Source of the DNA: Spirochaetota bacterium
Lineage (GTDB): Bacteria; Spirochaetota; Spirochaetia; CADAEX01
Reading direction: 5' to 3'
DNA: 58,527 nucleotides
Assembly: GCA_009786125.1 (NCBI GenBank)
Contig: WQTU01000135.1
Span: 1 to 58,527 of the forward strand
Below are positions 1,944 through 47,154 of the stretch, in pieces. The notes beneath the pieces are model-generated. The model saw only the letters and a list, made by a program, of their open reading frames with translations, was not told the DNA's origin and did no database searches. How positions within the stretch are numbered: the first letter of the stretch is position 1; each line of letters starts with the position of its first letter. Both the position numbers and the translations under genes were made by a program.

Positions 1944-4454
1944 GTGAAAAAGCCTGAGATACTTTCTCCTGCAGGAGATATTGAATGCATTAAAGCAGCA
2001 TTTGCAGCAGGAGCTGATGCAATATATTTTGGACTTCCTTTTTTTAATGCAAGGCAAAGAGCAACAAATATTGAGCCCAAACAGCTTCCTCTTATTGTCT
2101 CGGAAGCAAAACTCAGAGGAATAAAGCTTTATCTTACATTGAATACGCTTATCACAGAAGAAGAAATTCCATCTCTTCTTGATGTTATTGATACTGCAAT
2201 GATCTCCGGAGTAACAGATTTCATAATACAGGATATGGGGATTCTTTATATTCTAAAAAAAACTTACCCTATGGCAAAAATCCATATCTCAACCCAGGCA
2301 ACAACACATACAAAAGGGCAGATACTATTTCTTTCCAAATGCAATGTAGAAAGAGTAAATCTTGCAAGGGAACTCTCTCTTGCAGAAATAAAAGAACTTA
2401 CAGATATTGCGCATAAAAATAATATGGAAACAGAAGTTTTTGTTCATGGCTCACTCTGCATCTCCTTTTCCGGGCAGTGCTACTTATGTTCTTTTCTCGA
2501 AGGCTGCTCCGGCAACAGAGGGCTGTGTCAACAAAATTGCAGAAGACTTTATAAAAAAGCAAACAAAAAAAAATATTTCTTAAATCTGAAAGATAACAGT
2601 GCGCTGGAATATTCATCGCAGCTTATGGCTGCAGGAGTTGATTCTCTTAAAATCGAAGGCAGAATTAAAGGTCCGGCTTATGTCTATTCTGTAGTTAAAG
2701 GGTGGAAAACAATTCTGGAAAATAACAACCAGACCACGGCAGCAGGCGAGGCAGCTTTGCTTTTTGGCGGAGTCTTTAACAGGCTCTTTACAGCCGGATA
2801 CCTTGAAAGTGCTGTAAGTTATGATATGCTTTCAGAGATTCCCGCAGACCGCTCTCTCAAGAAGATTGCAGAAGTTATATCTTACAGCGCAGATAACTTC
2901 TTGCTTGAAAGCAGCCATATGTTTAAATCTGATCTTCTCTCCGAAATTATAATCAAAGACATTCATGATAATTTTATATGTGCAGCTATAGCAGAAAAAA
3001 CAGTTGGCAGTAACGATGGAAGAAGAGGCGAGCAAAAGAAACCAGAAAAGAGTTTTTTCTATAAAATAAAAATAACAGGCAAGCTGGAAGGAAAAATAAA
3101 AAAAGGGAATGCAATATTTGCCCAGAGACCTGCGCTTGAAGCAGGTGAATTGGAAAAAATGATTAACAGTGTCGTTTTCAGAAAAATCCCTCTAACTGCA
3201 GAAATATATGCAGAAGCAGACAAAGAGTTTAAGCTTAAACTCTTTGCGCAAAAAAATCTCTCCGCAGAAGAAAGCAGCGGAACTTATGAGTCCGAAAAAC
3301 CGATCTCTTTATCAATAAAAAATTCTACTTCAAAAGATGACATTTCAAAACAGCTTTCAAGATTTGGCAATACGCCATTTGAGCTTGAAAATATTGTTTT
3401 TAAAAATTGGGAAAACAATATTTTTATTCCTTCAAGTTTGATAAATATTGCCAGGAGAAAATGCACAGCAGAACTTTTGGGAACCATAGATTCGCCAAGA
3501 AAAGATATTTTCCTGGCGGCACATTGCCTTACCGGGCAAACGTTATGCGAAAACACTGTGTCAGCCAGCCAGCCCGGCGCAAAGCCGCGCAAGCTCTCTG
3601 TTTTTCTGGACAACATTACTATAGCAAAAGAACTAAAATCATTATATAAAGAAAAAATCGAAATAATATTAGAAATCAATGACCCAACCACAAATACCAA
3701 TATTGACAATAGCTTTACGCTCTTTTTCCCGGCAGTAATCGAATACAATGCAGAGGAAAAATACAAACAGCTTATAAAGAGTTGCAACAACAAAATTATT
3801 TTGAACAACACATCTTTTTTAGAAACTATATTAGATACTGGCAAAGAATGGATAGCCGGACCTTTTTTGAATATCACAAACAGTCTTGCAATAAAACTGT
3901 TCTCAGAAACAGCACGCTGCTCCGGCGCAATAGCTTCGCTTGAACTTTCGCTCGAACAAATAAAACTGTTAGCCGAAAAATCAGAATTGCCATTATCCTG
4001 CTTTATATATTCCGCAACAAAACTTATGACAACAAGGCAGTGCCTGCTTGAATACAAATGCGGGAAAAAAATATCAGATAGCACTTGTTATTATAATTGC
4101 TGCGGAGAAGATATTCTTGATGAAATTAACGGCAGAAGATTAAAAATATACAAAAGAAAATGGAATTTTACAGAACTATATGACAGCAGTTTTATTTTAA
4201 TTCCTGAGATTGTTCCTGCTCTAAAGAACAAAATATCAAACTTTATTATAGATTCAAGGGAATTTAGTTTTGCTGAACACGACCAGACAAAGGGCAGCGC
4301 AAGCCGGAAAACAATATCCGACTTGCGCTGGACTTTGCCCGAAATTACAGAACTTTTTATAATTTATCTGGAGAATCCAATCCCCGATAACAAAAATAAA
4401 ATTACAGAACTATTTAAAGCTACATCAAAGGGGAATATAAAAAAAGGAATTTAG
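1944..4454 (+). CDS. Peptidase U32 family protein (RlhA/YdcP-like)
   Basis: At 836 aa this is a long U32 protein. The N-terminal barrel begins KKPEILSPAGDIECIKAAFAAGADAIYFG. The family signature is EVFVHGSLCISFSGQCYLCS (about 169-188), followed by clustered cysteines (GCSGNRGLCQQNCRRLY) that in RlhA/TrhP relatives are thought to bind an Fe-S cluster. The middle matches the DUF3656-type extension of long members. A second Cys group (CLLEYKC...CYYNCC) lies near residue 700. Known members mostly hydroxylate rRNA or tRNA bases rather than cleave protein, so RNA modification is the better guess. GTG is the start: the ATG two bases earlier runs straight into a stop. The stop codon directly abuts repeat R1. 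Confidence 0.85.
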   Translation: MKKPEILSPAGDIECIKAAFAAGADAIYFGLPFFNARQRATNIEPKQLPLIVSEAKLRGIKLYLTLNTLITEEEIPSLLDVIDTAMISGVTDFIIQDMGILYILKKTYPMAKIHISTQATTHTKGQILFLSKCNVERVNLARELSLAEIKELTDIAHKNNMETEVFVHGSLCISFSGQCYLCSFLEGCSGNRGLCQQNCRRLYKKANKKKYFLNLKDNSALEYSSQLMAAGVDSLKIEGRIKGPAYVYSVVKGWKTILENNNQTTAAGEAALLFGGVFNRLFTAGYLESAVSYDMLSEIPADRSLKKIAEVISYSADNFLLESSHMFKSDLLSEIIIKDIHDNFICAAIAEKTVGSNDGRRGEQKKPEKSFFYKIKITGKLEGKIKKGNAIFAQRPALEAGELEKMINSVVFRKIPLTAEIYAEADKEFKLKLFAQKNLSAEESSGTYESEKPISLSIKNSTSKDDISKQLSRFGNTPFELENIVFKNWENNIFIPSSLINIARRKCTAELLGTIDSPRKDIFLAAHCLTGQTLCENTVSASQPGAKPRKLSVFLDNITIAKELKSLYKEKIEIILEINDPTTNTNIDNSFTLFFPAVIEYNAEEKYKQLIKSCNNKIILNNTSFLETILDTGKEWIAGPFLNITNSLAIKLFSETARCSGAIASLELSLEQIKLLAEKSELPLSCFIYSATKLMTTRQCLLEYKCGKKISDSTCYYNCCGEDILDEINGRRLKIYKRKWNFTELYDSSFILIPEIVPALKNKISNFIIDSREFSFAEHDQTKGSASRKTISDLRWTLPEITELFIIYLENPIPDNKNKITELFKATSKGNIKKGI

Positions 4455-4576
4455 GGAAGCACTGATTAAATTTGACTCTAATCAGTGCTTCCACATTTTT
4501 TCTCGTTTTCTTGCAGAAAACTGTGAAAAAAGGATAATAAGGTAAAGCTGATTTATTCTCGATTGAATAAATCAGC
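4455..4576. repeat. Structured palindromic element R1, copy 1 (three hairpins)
   Basis: Three inverted repeats follow the U32 stop codon without a gap. Hairpin 1 (4455-4492) is a perfect 14-bp stem, GGAAGCACTGATTA, around a 10-base loop. Hairpin 2 (4496-4531) pairs TTTTTTC with GAAAAAA and, inside, GTTTTC with GAAAAC. Hairpin 3 (4547-4576) is a perfect 12-bp stem, GCTGATTTATTC, with loop TCGATT. Related copies lie at 24573-24713, 44914-44981 (inverted, partial) and 46924-46962 (hairpin 1 only). It may double as a terminator between two convergent genes. Confidence 0.9.
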
Positions 4577-4614
4577 GGTTTCTTAGGCGACCGATTTTTT
4601 TCCCTATAAAACAC

Positions 4615-6913: not shown

Positions 6914-7453
6914 TTATAAGAAATAATCCAAAAACAATATCACAAAAATAGCTACAATTAAAAACATATTTGCAAGACAAAAATTATTAGCCATTTGCAG
7001 CTTTTTAGCAATGTTTTCATTGTTCCTTTCATATTCATCGATAACTTCTACTAATTTTTCCTTAATATAGGTAACAAAATCATCTTCATTAATACTTTTA
7101 AGCTTTTGATATGCATCAATAGGATCAAATTCAGGACGACTTTTCGGCTTATAACTATTATGGAGTGTAACAATTAGAAAAATAAATATAAGCAAATAGC
7201 ATAAACAAAGAATAAAGTTAATGATTGACAGTATTTCTTCTAATGAAAACTTTATTACCATACCTCGACTAAGCAAGGATAATTCTACGACAAGAAAAGC
7301 TGCAAGAGAAATACCTGTAACCATATAATATCCTATAGCTTTACTTTCCAGGCGATCTTTTCGAGAAATTTCCATTTTATATTTATCATATATTTTTTCT
7401 AATATATAAAATTCTTTTTTTATTTTTGTTTCAAAAACACCATTATTCTCCAC
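6914..7453 (-). CDS. Three-TM membrane protein with helical cytosolic segments (SLATT-like architecture)
   Basis: The 179 aa protein begins with an amphipathic helix (EFYILEKIYDKYKMEISRKDR), then TM1 (~46-64), TM2 (~76-98), a charged ~50-residue cytosolic segment with a helical KEKLVEVIDEYERNNENI stretch, and TM3 at the C-terminus (~158-178). That order of helix, TM hairpin, soluble helix and TM recalls SLATT and related membrane effectors of bacterial conflict systems, but I see no diagnostic residue, so this is resemblance only. It is flanked by the small proline-rich ORF downstream and the LRR gene upstream. Confidence 0.6.
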   Translation of the reverse strand: MENNGVFETKIKKEFYILEKIYDKYKMEISRKDRLESKAIGYYMVTGISLAAFLVVELSLLSRGMVIKFSLEEILSIINFILCLCYLLIFIFLIVTLHNSYKPKSRPEFDPIDAYQKLKSINEDDFVTYIKEKLVEVIDEYERNNENIAKKLQMANNFCLANMFLIVAIFVILFLDYFL

Positions 7454-7461
7454 AGATTCTT

Positions 7462-8892
7462 TTATCTCCGTATTATTCTTACCCGTGAATCAAACGCCCT
7501 ATATCCAATATGAGTAACAGAATTGCCAATGGTTACACTTGTTAGTTGGTTTTCAAAAAACGCAAAATCTCCAATATGAGTAACAGAATTAGGAATTGTT
7601 ACGCTTGTAAGTTGGTTTCTCAAAAACGCACCCTCACCAATATGAGTAACAGAATTAGGAATTGTTACGCTTGTAAGTTGGTTCCAAGCAAACGCCCTAT
7701 TTCCAATATGAGTAACAGAATTAGGAATTGTTACTCGTGTAAGTTGGTTTTTCAAAAACGCAAAATCTCCAATATGAGTAACAGAATTAGGAATTGTTAC
7801 GCTTGTAAGTTGGTTCCAAGCAAACGCCTCCTCACCAATATGAGTAACAGAATTAGGAATTGTTACACTTGTTAGTTGGTTTCTATAAAACGCAAAATCT
7901 CCAATATGAGTAACAGAATTAGGAATTACTACACTTGTAAGTTCATTATCAGCAAACGCCCAAACTCCAATATGAGTAACAGAATTAGGAATTGTTACGC
8001 TTGTAAGTTGGTTTACAGCAAACGCCTCCTCACCAATATGAGTAACAGAATTAGGAATTGTTACGCTTGTAAGTTGGTTTCTCAAAAACGCAAAATCTCC
8101 AATATGAGTAACAGAATTGCCAATGGTTACACTTGTAAGCTGGTTTCTATAAAACGCACCCTCACCAATATGAGTAACAGAATTAGGAATTGTTACGCTT
8201 GTAAGTTGGTTTCTAAAAAACGCAAAATCTCCAATATGAGTAACAGAATTGCCAATGGTTACACTTGTAAGCTGGTTTCTATAAAACGCACTCTCACCAA
8301 TATGAGTAACAGAATTGCCAATGGTTACACTTGTAAGTTGGTTTCTATAAAACGCATCATCATCAATATGAGTAACAGAATTAGGAATTGTTACACTTGT
8401 TAGTTGGTTTTCATAAAACGCCCTATATCCAATATGAGTAACAGAATTGCCAATGGTTACGCTTGCAAGTTGGTTCCAAGCAAACGCCAAAGCTCCAATA
8501 TAAGTAACAGAATTAGGAATTGTTACGCTTGTAAGTTGGTTTCCAAGAAACGCAAAATCTCCAATATGAGTAACAGAATTAGGAATTGTTACTCGTGTAA
8601 GTTGGCTTCCAAAAAACGCAAAATCTCCAATATGAGTAACAGAATTAGGAATTGTTACGCTTGTAAGTTCATTATCAGCAAACGCACTACCCCCAATCGA
8701 GGTAACAAGTAGCCCCCGTATTCTGGGAGGAATACTGACTGCTCCTCCTTGTCCAGTATAACCAGTAATCCGTGCTGTGCCGTCTCCTAATAACTCAATT
8801 TGAAAATCAGTTTCATTGCTATATTGCTGCGCATACATCGATAAACTCACGAACAATACCAACACAAAACAACAAGTTATAATTCTGTTCAT
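7462..8892 (-). CDS. Secreted BspA/TpLRR-type leucine-rich repeat protein
   Basis: A signal peptide (MNRIITCCFVLVLFVSLSMYAQ) precedes a ~55-residue cap and then 18 nearly identical 22-residue repeats of the form QLTSVTIPNSVTHIGDFAFxxN (about 75-470), ending in a short basic tail. This is the LRR_5 / TpLRR class found in treponemes and Bacteroidetes, where such proteins bind host or partner surfaces. The repeat here is 22 rather than the usual 23 residues. Repeats differ mainly at IP/IG and at the three or four positions before the final N, so the exposed face varies over a constant scaffold. At DNA level it is a 66-bp tandem array. Confidence 0.92.
   Translation of the reverse strand: MNRIITCCFVLVLFVSLSMYAQQYSNETDFQIELLGDGTARITGYTGQGGAVSIPPRIRGLLVTSIGGSAFADNELTSVTIPNSVTHIGDFAFFGSQLTRVTIPNSVTHIGDFAFLGNQLTSVTIPNSVTYIGALAFAWNQLASVTIGNSVTHIGYRAFYENQLTSVTIPNSVTHIDDDAFYRNQLTSVTIGNSVTHIGESAFYRNQLTSVTIGNSVTHIGDFAFFRNQLTSVTIPNSVTHIGEGAFYRNQLTSVTIGNSVTHIGDFAFLRNQLTSVTIPNSVTHIGEEAFAVNQLTSVTIPNSVTHIGVWAFADNELTSVVIPNSVTHIGDFAFYRNQLTSVTIPNSVTHIGEEAFAWNQLTSVTIPNSVTHIGDFAFLKNQLTRVTIPNSVTHIGNRAFAWNQLTSVTIPNSVTHIGEGAFLRNQLTSVTIPNSVTHIGDFAFFENQLTSVTIGNSVTHIGYRAFDSRVRIIRR
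7495..8715. repeat. 66-bp tandem repeat array (about 18 units)
   Basis: Units such as CCAATATGAGTAACAGAATT recur every 66 bases with few changes, encoding the LRR repeats. The high DNA identity creates three long antisense ORFs (7546-8712) that are artefacts of the periodicity. Such arrays gain and lose units by slippage or recombination, so unit number may vary between strains or be misassembled. Confidence 0.93.
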
Positions 8893-23796: not shown

Positions 23797-24657
23797 ATGA
23801 AAAAAATCGAAACAGGGAAATTATATATACTAGAAGATATTGCAACCGACCTTGCTTATCTTAAAATCAAAATCGGAAAAAACGCACAAAATTACGTCCC
23901 AGGCAATTTTGTAACAATTCTTCCCCCGGTCTCATCCGGAAGATACTTGCGAAGACCTTTTTCTTTAGCTGGAAACTCAGACGATTCCATAGAGCTTATT
24001 ATAAAAAACATCGGTCCTGTTACAAAAAGTCTTGTTTCTCTCGCACCGGAGACCGAAGTCGAAGTGCTTGGACCCCTTGGCAACAGCTATCAGATTCCAG
24101 AAAACATAAAAAAACTCTGGATGATCGGCGGCGGCACAGGGATTGCATCGATTCTGTTCTTAAATTCCATGCGGCAGGGCAATGCAGACAAAGTTTTGTG
24201 GGCAGGCAGGACAAAAGATCAGCTTCCTTCCGCGGATTTATTTTATACTGATGGGTTAGAAAGCCGATTTTCGCACATTTTTAAGAAAAATATTGTTCTG
24301 GCAACTGATGATGGCTCTATTGGCGAAAAAGGCACAGCGCCGGAAATTCTGGAGCGCTGGCTTGGGCAGGAGAGCCCGCCGGACGCAATTGTTTCCTGCG
24401 GGCCGCACGGCATGATGCAAGCAATAAAAAAAATAGCAGATGCACGCAACATTCCTGCATGGTTTTCACTTGAGGAATTTATGGCGTGCGGCACCGGCGC
24501 TTGTGCAGGATGCGCAGTACCTTCTTCTAGCGGCGGTTATCTTAAAGCCTGCGTAGACGGACCTGTTTTTGCGGGGTCGCTGATTAAATTTGACTCTAAT
24601 CAGCAACCCCATGTTTTTTCTCGTTTTCTTGCAGAAAACTGCGAAAAAAAACATTAA
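23797..24657 (+). CDS. pyrK: Dihydroorotate dehydrogenase electron-transfer subunit PyrK
   Basis: This is the FAD/[2Fe-2S] partner of PyrD in class 1B enzymes, passing electrons from dihydroorotate to NAD+. FAD-binding RYLRRPFSLAG (~50-60) and the NAD-binding MIGGGTGIASILFL follow the ferredoxin-reductase layout. The cluster ligands are in EEFMACGTGACAGCAVP and LKACVDGPVF (C-x4-C-x2-C-x(n)-C). The usual PyrK tail ends soon after GPVF; here the last 28 codons (GSLIKFDSNQ...CEKKH) come from repeat R1 hairpins 1 and 2, with the stop in the repeat. At 286 aa the protein is therefore longer than its likely ancestor. Confidence 0.93.
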   Translation: MKKIETGKLYILEDIATDLAYLKIKIGKNAQNYVPGNFVTILPPVSSGRYLRRPFSLAGNSDDSIELIIKNIGPVTKSLVSLAPETEVEVLGPLGNSYQIPENIKKLWMIGGGTGIASILFLNSMRQGNADKVLWAGRTKDQLPSADLFYTDGLESRFSHIFKKNIVLATDDGSIGEKGTAPEILERWLGQESPPDAIVSCGPHGMMQAIKKIADARNIPAWFSLEEFMACGTGACAGCAVPSSSGGYLKACVDGPVFAGSLIKFDSNQQPHVFSRFLAENCEKKH

Positions 24658-24713
24658 GGTAATACGGCTTGCCCCTTCGGGATGCTTTGCAATTCTCGAT
24701 TGAATAAAGCCGT
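24573..24713. repeat. R1 element, copy 2, inserted across the 3' end of pyrK
   Basis: Hairpin 1 (24573-24610) has arms GGGGTCGCTGATTA / TAATCAGCAACCCC with the loop of copy 1 (AATTTGACTC) preserved, while the outer seven base pairs differ but still pair. Hairpin 2 (24613-24652) is nearly identical to copy 1. Hairpin 3 is closed by ACGGCTT (24664-24670) and AAGCCGT (24707-24713) around the conserved ATTCTCGATTGAATAAA. The pyrK stop lies at 24655-24657. pyrD starts 28 bp after the element. Confidence 0.9.
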
Positions 24714-24741
24714 GATTTATTCAAAGCAGCGAGGTAATTCT

Positions 24742-25931: not shown

Positions 25932-26003
25932 CTATTGCTTAAAAAAATCGATTAATTCCTGCGTGGTGTTCGCAATATAATCTGCGCCTGCTTGTTTAAG
26001 CCC
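25932..26003 (-). pseudogene. Remnant of the original HAD C-terminus after the WD40 segment
   Basis: On the minus strand this reads GLKQAGADYIANTTQELIDFFKQ-stop, matching the HAD part of the neighbour (GLKQAGADYIASTPQELIDFFKK) at 27068-27133. The DNA matches in 61 of 66 bases. It lies out of frame just past the stop of the HAD-WD40 gene. It looks like the native end of the HAD gene, displaced when the WD40 segment came in. Confidence 0.85.
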
Positions 26004-26008
26004 TATTA

Positions 26009-28027
26009 TCAGGCTTCCCATAATTTTATAGTTTTATCCCATGATCCGGAAGCGATATATTTATTGTTCGGGCTGAATGCAACTGAATGAACAATATTCG
26101 TATGACTTGCAAAGATGTGAATAAGTTGACCGCTTTCAGTGTCCCATAGTTTCAAAGTTTTATCAGATGCCCCGGAAACAATACGCTTGTTGTCGGGGCT
26201 AAATGCGACTGACTTCACTATATCAGTATGGCCTTCAAAGGTGTGAATAAGCTGACCGCTTTCAACATCCCACAGTTTCAAAGTTTTATCAGCAGAGCCG
26301 GAAACGATATATTTGTTGTCTGGGCTGAATGCAACTGAATGCACATCACCTGTATGACCTTCAAAAGTGCGAATAAGCTGGCCTTTTTCAGCTTTCCATA
26401 GTTTCAAAGTTTTATCTTTTGACCCAGAAGCAATACACTTGTTGTCTGAGCTGTATGCGACTGAAAGTACAGAATCCGTATGTTTTTTGGAACCGCTTCC
26501 CATGTTGCGAATAAGCCGGCCTTTTTCAATATCCCACAGTTTAAAAACTTTGTAATTTACGCCGGCAACAATACGCTTGCTGTCCGGGCTGATTGCGATT
26601 GAAAGCACATTACATTGATGACCTATTAAAAAATCCTTAATGCCTCCAAAGGATTTGATAAAACAGCCAGTTCCAGTATCCCATAGTTGCAAATTAGCAA
26701 CAGTTGTTCCGGTTGCCCCGGAAATGATATACTTGCCGTTCGGGCTGAATGCGGCTGAACGCACAGAATCACCCGCATGATTTTCAATGGTGTAGACAAG
26801 GTTACCGCTTTTAACCTCCCATAACATTAAAGTGTTATTTTCTGATTCGTCTGTCTTTAAATTGCTTGACCCGCCGGAAATAATATATTTGCTGTTCGGG
26901 CTGAATGCAACTGACAATACTATGGAAGAATGGCCTTCAAAGGTGCGGATAAGTCGCTCGCTTGTACCCTGAATTCCTGAACGCATTAGGTTTATTCCAT
27001 GCCCTTCGTTGCCAGACTCCGGAGAAGGCACAGAAATGCTCTCTTGGTTCACACTGACATAGGGCTTCTTAAAAAAATCGATTAATTCTTGCGGGGTGCT
27101 GGCAATATAATCTGCTCCTGCTTGTTTAAGCCCAATGGCTGAGCTGTCTTTATTCGTAGAAGAATATGTAACCCCTACTGCGCAAAAATTATACTTTGAT
27201 CTTTTTGCTGCAATCATGTCATCAGGTATATCTCCAATATAATATGGCTTTTCTTTAAGCTCACCTTTGTTTTTATAATGCTCTGCAATAACATCCAACA
27301 TAAATGGGTGCGGTTTACAAAAAGATATTTTTTCCAAGGTATTTTTTTCTGCTTCTTCTGCTGCTTTCACACAGTCATCGTGAGTTAATACTTTTTTAAA
27401 AAAATCTATATTATTTTTTTTAATGGCATAAAGAGCTTCTTTTTCGGGACGGCCTGTTGCAACTGCAAGTGTGTTTTTTGCAGACAGCGAAGAAAGCTGC
27501 GCCCTGTTTATTAAAAGCTTTTCTTTTAAAATAAGCCCTTTCTCAACACAATATTGCGGTGCAATCCCATAAATTTCCGAAAAAAGCCGTTTTCCAAGAT
27601 ATATTTCCTGAAAAATCTGCTTTATAATATTGCCGGAGCCAACATCACCTTTATAGAAAAAATCAACTTCTTTAAAATTCAGTGTTCCTGCTTCTTTAAA
27701 AAGAGTTTCAAGAGGTTTGTCTTCTGATTTAAGAAAAGAAGCAAGCTTCTTAACATCCCACTTTTCCCTGTTTGTATTTTCTTTTCTGTTACTGATTTTC
27801 GAAAACATTAACGTTACTACCTTATGAGTCATATCCCAGTCATTATTAAGCCCGCCTGTTCCTTTAAGAAAAGAGAGTTCCTGTAAATTAAAAAGCGGCT
27901 GAGGCAGCAGGTTTGAATTAATACACGGCAATAAAAATATAGATGCGGTTTTTCTTATAGCCTCCTTATAGGAAGAAGAAACATCTATCAGAACCCCATC
28001 CATATCAAAAATTATAAGCTTTTTCAT
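26009..28027 (-). CDS. HAD phosphatase fused to a seven-bladed WD40 propeller
   Basis: Residues 1-320 are a HAD-superfamily IA hydrolase: motif I FDMDGVLID (Asp8 nucleophile, Asp10), motif II region NTLAVATGRPEKEAL, motif III/IV as KPHPFMLDVI...YYIGDIPDDMIAAKRS. A ~50-residue linker follows the old C-terminal KQAGADYIASTPQELIDFFKK. Residues ~365-672 form seven WD blades, each ending in LW (MLW, LQLW, FKLW, then LKLW repeats and IKLW), with highly alike units such as HTDIVKSVAFSPDNKRIVSGASDKTLKLWD. HAD-WD40 fusions are uncommon. The propeller could bind a protein partner or localise the enzyme; the substrate is unknown. See the remnant at 25932-26003. Confidence 0.9.
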   Translation of the reverse strand: MKKLIIFDMDGVLIDVSSSYKEAIRKTASIFLLPCINSNLLPQPLFNLQELSFLKGTGGLNNDWDMTHKVVTLMFSKISNRKENTNREKWDVKKLASFLKSEDKPLETLFKEAGTLNFKEVDFFYKGDVGSGNIIKQIFQEIYLGKRLFSEIYGIAPQYCVEKGLILKEKLLINRAQLSSLSAKNTLAVATGRPEKEALYAIKKNNIDFFKKVLTHDDCVKAAEEAEKNTLEKISFCKPHPFMLDVIAEHYKNKGELKEKPYYIGDIPDDMIAAKRSKYNFCAVGVTYSSTNKDSSAIGLKQAGADYIASTPQELIDFFKKPYVSVNQESISVPSPESGNEGHGINLMRSGIQGTSERLIRTFEGHSSIVLSVAFSPNSKYIISGGSSNLKTDESENNTLMLWEVKSGNLVYTIENHAGDSVRSAAFSPNGKYIISGATGTTVANLQLWDTGTGCFIKSFGGIKDFLIGHQCNVLSIAISPDSKRIVAGVNYKVFKLWDIEKGRLIRNMGSGSKKHTDSVLSVAYSSDNKCIASGSKDKTLKLWKAEKGQLIRTFEGHTGDVHSVAFSPDNKYIVSGSADKTLKLWDVESGQLIHTFEGHTDIVKSVAFSPDNKRIVSGASDKTLKLWDTESGQLIHIFASHTNIVHSVAFSPNNKYIASGSWDKTIKLWEA

Positions 28028-44892: not shown

Positions 44893-44913
44893 ATTTCGTC
44901 AGGAACTTGGGAA

Positions 44914-45065
44914 CAGCTGATTTATTCAATCGAGAATAAATTGCGCAGCATCCCGAACTTGTTCGGGGCTGCATTACCTTATTTCCGAATGAAGCGGGCG
45001 TGCTTGCACGCACATTACCGAGCGAATAAGGAAACGCAGCTTTGCTGCGGTATCCTTTTTAAGTG
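44914..45065. repeat. R1 partial copy fused to an R2-type hairpin, inverted orientation
   Basis: The complement carries the R1 hairpin-3 core (TTTATTCAATCGAGAATAAA at 44920-44940), then GCAGC..CCCGAAC..GTTCGGG..GCTGC, then GCATTACCTTA, and continues as an R2 module (45000-45065): TGCGTGC-AA-GCACGC in TTCGCTCGGTAATG...CCGCTTCATTCGG and a second hairpin CCGCAGC-AAA-GCTGCGG. It fills the gap between dus and creD-like genes (44893-45164), where I see no coding feature. Confidence 0.8.
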
Positions 45066-46923: not shown

Positions 46924-46962
46924 GGAAGTGCTGATTAAATTTAACTCTAATCAGCTATTTCC
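46924..46962. repeat. R1 hairpin 1 alone (copy 4)
   Basis: GGAAGTGCTGATTA / TAATCAGCTATTTCC around AATTTAACTC, differing from copy 1's loop by one base. It is upstream of the secreted-protein start and beside the R2 element that follows at 46986. The outer arm pairs are imperfect here. Confidence 0.8.
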
Positions 46963-46985
46963 TAATACTAATATACTTTTATAAT

Positions 46986-47154
46986 AAAGGGTATTATACC
47001 GCAGGGCAAGCCCTGCACCCACCGCCTACGGCGGTTTGCCACGACAAGCCGCGGGGTACGCGTACGCGACCCTTTTTGTTCCTCATCGCTCGATCATGCG
47101 AAAGCTTAGCTTTCGCGCGATTCTCGCTTATTCGTCCAATAACTTACACATCTT
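46986..47154. repeat. R2 multi-hairpin element, copy 1
   Basis: AAAGGGT and ACCCTTT close a region with GCAGGGC..GCCCTGC, ACCGC..GCGGT and the palindrome GTACGCGTAC. Then CTCATCGCTCGATCATG-(CGAAAGC TTA GCTTTCG)-CGCGATTCTCGCTTATTCG makes a second hairpin module. Copy 2 at 50297-50494 shares the order with different arms. It is notably more GC-rich than the surrounding genes. No coding feature is present. Confidence 0.82.

Follow-up and report, generated by a model that had tools for sequence, protein, structure and literature searches.

The 128-bp element that begins at position 4455 of the window (the whole stretch of 58,527 nucleotides analysed here) is, we think, a MITE of the IS5 type, whose hairpin arms are likely to owe their matched changes to quasipalindrome template switching at the level of DNA. 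In the most likely account, the changes are matched because one arm serves as template for the other during DNA replication, and not through preservation of an RNA shape. Four features favor such re-copying: several bases change at once, a middle hairpin has been inverted, one-sided changes lack a G-U bias, and old copies still pair.

The earlier note, made from the window only, described three hairpins in fixed order, and the complete element does hold three (Table 1). Folded as single-stranded DNA, 4455-4582 gives exactly three hairpins (z = -10 relative to 200 shuffles). The copy starts with GGAAGCACTGATTA and ends with TAAATCAGCGGTTTC, the reverse complement of the end resembling the start. 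The terminal inverted repeats are GGAAGCACTGATTA at one end and GGAACCGCTGATTTA at the other, the right repeat being made of the outer arm of hairpin 3 followed by GGTTTC. After hairpin 1 come ACA and a run of six T. The copy carries no gene of its own, and a search of the curated RNA families of Rfam gave no match to it, the only match in the window being a tRNA.

Table 1. Positions and make-up of the element, of its kin in the window and of sequences associated with the family
Feature	Position	Strand	Details
Left target-site duplication TTAG	4451-4454	+	TAG within it is the stop codon of ORF 1944-4454
Complete copy of the probable MITE	4455-4582	+	128 bp, three hairpins, inverted-repeat ends
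Hairpin 1	4455-4492	+	GGAAGCACTGATTA / loop AATTTGACTC / TAATCAGTGCTTCC; outer arm is the left terminal inverted repeat
Middle hairpin, imperfect	4496-4531	+	Counterpart in other copies has corrected or inverted arms
Hairpin 3	4547-4576	+	GCTGATTTATTC / TCGATT / GAATAAATCAGC
Right target-site duplication TTAG	4583-4586	+
Old divergent copy, without intact target duplication	24573-24719	+	Arms GGGGTCGC/GCAACCCC
Minimal derivative, hairpin 1 only (left end joined to right end)	46924-46961	+	Flanks TGAA/CTAA, an imperfect duplication
Right part of a long variant	44910-45055	-	Hairpin 3, in which a second hairpin is nested, plus a further palindromic repeat module (44975-45055)
Nested palindrome AAGAACC...GGTTCTT	Loop 1 of long forms
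Nested hairpin GCAGCCCCGAACAAGTTCGGGATGCTGC	5' of hairpin 3 in long forms
Nested 90-bp module	Linker of long forms		A repeat in its own right, at least 40 genome matches
Terminal sequence predicted for the parent insertion sequence			GGAAYCRCTGATTAAAT

The four places at which the family had been seen in the window all exist, and there are many more. The genome is a 2.42-Mb draft of 139 contigs, judged 99% complete, in which the window is contig C135. BLAST finds 112 matches to the element, palindromic cross-matches counted. A covariance model built from 12 copies finds 132 matches at E<=1 and about 100 at E<=0.001; as the latter include some reverse-strand duplicates, they amount to roughly 90-100 places. 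The relatives, in which the earlier note had proposed a search, yielded nothing convincing: BLAST against 59 of them, including three other genomes of the genus, returned a sole match of 26 bp, and the covariance model, applied to 11 relatives, returned a single weak match (E = 0.27) and nothing in the three congeners. Neither 84,980 other species nor viral contigs contain the exact core pattern, and a comparison of the element to plasmid and phage records was likewise negative. On these searches the MITE family is species-restricted. Its members, read in the stretches of genome around copies, differ in form. Five places (L163, L167, C89:5718, C74:8620 and C131:8500) have a single hairpin with target duplications, and in long forms further palindromes are nested at fixed places.

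The flanks mark the element as transposable. An exact 4-bp duplication occurs at a fixed offset in 24 of the 30 copies that have both ends. The right tetramer could be defined independently in 27 copies, and 21 of these match, compared to a mean of 5.3 and a maximum of 14 in 20,000 shuffles. The duplications are mostly YTAR (TTAG, CTAG, CTAA, TTAA), with a few ATAG and others; YTAR is the published target duplication of IS5 (PMC10359306). The ends of contigs C17 and C46 read CTAG or CTAA, then GGAACCACTGATTAAATTCCC, a short leader and a reading frame starting MKLQVTFSDIEYEKRKRV, of which 18 codons were assembled before the contig stops. The insertion-sequence end on these two contigs (GGAACCACTGATTAAATT) is identical to the left end of the MITE (GGAAGCACTGATTAAATT) at 17 of 18 bases. 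We regard the insertion sequence at these contig ends, whose body is missing from the draft, as the most promising candidate for an autonomous parent; its end was not found in other species. The start of the reading frame presumably resembles those of IS5-group transposases, 18 residues being too few for a test. Since the parent gene is assembled for 18 codons only, the IS5 assignment rests on the target site and the termini. Because of the 4-bp YTAR duplications and the matching insertion-sequence end, we consider the element a MITE, probably IS5-type; it is also short (128 bp), present in many copies and without its own transposase, as MITEs are. The earlier view that no named family fits can thus be dropped.

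Other assignments were considered and rejected. The DDE_Tnp_1 matches (L061-L063) lack the ends of the MITE, and such remnants, like those of PF05598, are either without those ends or broken. An IS630/mariner-type MITE would have a 2-bp TA duplication and a DDE_3 transposase, whereas the duplication here is 4 bp and the genome has no PF13358. A REPIN is disfavored by the 4-bp duplication and by the lack of a RAYT (PF01797) match in a genome draft judged 99% complete; the RAYT-like transposase that the earlier note suggested looking for was not found. To our knowledge, REPINs are defined by having no target-site duplication. Of separate note are a PF05598 remnant at C111:545-688, and another insertion-sequence end at the start of contig C58 (L166:1-100), where CTAG is followed by GGAGTCGCTGATTAAATCC. 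The latter may represent the parent element's right end, and part of the same sequence adjoins the MITE copy in contig C35.

The family shares with IS5-derived MITEs the short length, lack of genes, inverted-repeat ends, target duplication, high copy number and intergenic location (reviewed in PMC10969869), as well as the YTAR target (PMC10359306) and, probably, ends in common with an insertion sequence of the same genome. Unlike in those MITEs, each terminal repeat here sits inside its own hairpin, the arms of many copies have covaried, and loops and linkers harbor further palindromic repeats. REPIN/RAYT systems (PMC3116915) are likewise small palindromic mobile repeats but differ in the two respects that here there is a 4-bp target duplication and no Y1 transposase gene was found.

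In a set of 40 copies, none falls inside an ORF that reaches 90 codons, though a few overlap an ORF end. When the ends were mapped relative to stop codons, as had been suggested, the target duplication of nine of the 40 proved to contain the stop codon of the adjacent gene; going by the available YTAR sites, about 9% was expected (p ~0.01, a post hoc count). Such insertions would be harmless to the protein, since duplication of a YTAR that holds a TAA or TAG stop gives the stop back. At these places, hairpin 1 followed by ACATTTTTT could serve as a putative terminator.

The covariation of the arms is real and above relatedness. In an alignment of 71 copies, anchored on the loop without use of the structure, two stem pairs of hairpin 1 reach E<0.02 among all 3741 column pairs under a null model in which the changes of each column were redistributed over the tree (60 simulations). 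The fifth pair of this stem has been seen as G-C, T-A, C-G and A-T. By event count on the tree, there were 22 in-register double changes from one Watson-Crick pair to another, compared to 0-1 when the partner was slid by one to three bases. In 25 distinct sequences, 95.4% of the cells are paired, and the covariation score is 0.284 vs. 0.086 for shuffled sequences (0 of 500 as high). Nine divergent copies have among them 33 arm changes from their nearest subfamily, and only 3 of their 72 arm pairs are mismatched, whereas independent decay would produce 26 mismatches (0 of 20,000 trials did as well). With 69 of the 72 pairs kept, the central claim of the earlier note, that outer arms differ yet remain complementary, is therefore sound, and so is the covariation beyond phylogeny on which it was to be judged.

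Less symmetrical changes are also informative. One-sided changes gave 1 G-U, 7 A-C and 9 other mismatches. As they are not biased toward G-U, there is no sign of the wobble tolerance of RNA (p = 0.035, one-sided, from only eight events; the tree itself drew in part on the columns tested). The outer arms change about five times as fast as the loops and inner stems. Some of this difference may reflect ascertainment, the loop having served in part to find the copies, and correction of the arms alone does not predict it.

Template switching at quasipalindromes is documented elsewhere (PMC8794818, PMC8604942), and inversion of the spacer is one of its described footprints (PMC8604942; PMC8794818). 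Footprints of this kind are seen in the family, as reconstructed events, some of them from few copies. The 5' arm of the middle hairpin, TCTCG, is replaced by TCGTAG in five copies, which may represent one event, and by TCGCAG in one. Each replacement complements a version of the 3' arm, and each needs a substitution plus an insertion. In C85 the direction is reversed, the 3' arm having been corrected from the 5' arm, and at C35:4545 the middle hairpin is inverted. Hairpin 3 in C109 is perfect across 22 bp, target duplication included. Old copies that have lost intact duplications have arms that are still paired. Stem pairing extends 3-4 bases into flanking DNA in only three copies (C126:18849, C93:7730 and C124:7400); as about one would be expected by chance, we did not count these as evidence of correction.

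We envisage the following course of events. The IS5-type transposase of the parent insertion sequence would move, or have moved, the MITE, and the copies would drift after insertion, each hairpin being a quasipalindrome. When one arm mutates, replication would occasionally switch template to the opposite arm and re-copy it, a step that we infer from the footprints. Re-copying would either erase the mutation or write it into both arms. In this way the stems would remain paired even as their sequence shifts, with an occasional inversion of what lies between the arms. The family shares with known quasipalindrome correction (PMC8794818, PMC8604942) the multi-base changes that perfect an arm and the inversion between arms. 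What differs is that the process is read here from a single genome, in which one mobile hairpin has some 70 paralogous copies. A literature search for covarying bacterial MITEs found none.

The main rival, which we consider unlikely, is selection on structure: the hairpins would have a function, be it as RNA (for example, as terminators beside stop codons) or in the form of folded DNA, with selection favoring compensatory mutations. The T run after hairpin 1, the nine copies with a stop codon in the duplication, and the conserved loops and inner stems are what one would expect. Selection on RNA, however, would tolerate G-U, and G-U bias is absent; many pair changes are transversional flips (G-C to T-A or C-G) on a single branch; some copies are flanked by divergent genes, a setting that calls for no terminator; and the arm inversion and the correction in both directions need no selection. 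The earlier note had left the choice between selection for structure and a copying mechanism that preserves pairing. The copying is the better supported half of that alternative, while RNA-structure selection is disfavored by the lack of G-U intermediates.

It is also conceivable, and in our opinion quite unlikely, that the homogenization is coupled to the life cycle of the element, with each transposition or replication rewriting one arm from the other. If so, the family would explore new terminal repeats while staying palindromic, a MITE that actively changes its ends with symmetry kept. A very unlikely reading invokes the transposase itself: hairpins 1 and 3 would be minimal palindromic MITEs, both of whose ends must match the transposase, so that arms shift together between subfamilies. 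The one-hairpin derivatives with target duplications are in accord with this, as are copies with variant arms and intact duplications (C35:323, C132:26499), which indicate that subfamilies have moved. But the most unusual arms (GTAACATA, GTAACCGA and GGGGTCGC) belong to single old copies that have no intact duplications and are still paired, and the middle hairpin behaves alike even though it forms no end of the element. That arms are equalized during transposition, through a hairpin or single-stranded intermediate and not by ordinary replication, we hold to be highly improbable: perfectly paired variants do occur as single copies and small subfamilies, but old copies that no longer look mobile still pair, and we know of no IS5-type step that makes such intermediates.

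When a functional RNA structure is claimed from sequence, covariation above phylogeny is commonly held to be the best evidence, although significant covariation by itself is no proof of a functional RNA. Dozens of paralogous hairpins whose covariation is significant but looks mutational make the family a useful counter-example, or control, for RNA-discovery pipelines. If template switching is the cause, a single genome with this MITE family would also suffice to measure how fast, and in which direction, correction proceeds.

The remaining copies in the window illustrate the range of the family. The arms of the 24573-24719 copy pair throughout, save for one C-A. The last ~28 codons (24573-24657) of a pyrK-like ORF (23797-24657) come from this copy, and the MITE-derived tail begins right where the family profile stops. 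In this the family recalls the Rickettsia palindromic elements, which also add in-frame segments to proteins; unlike those, copies here are almost all intergenic. The loop of the 46924-46961 derivative, AATTTAACTC, is one base different, so the loops, said earlier to be identical, are not quite so in that copy. The palindromic module at 44975-45055 has at least 40 matches in the genome; it is nested in some MITE copies, and many of its matches stand free outside the family. Adjoining the minimal copy, at 46970-47110, more hairpins, of different sequence, are densely packed, and a transposase remnant in L153 is interrupted by runs of a similar kind. The window has other repeats as well: seventeen 66-bp tandem repeats (22-residue units) in a minus-strand reading frame at 7426-8781, and, at 25979-26963, 126-bp repeats (42 residues, with WD40-like spacing) in the minus-strand ORF 26009-28027.
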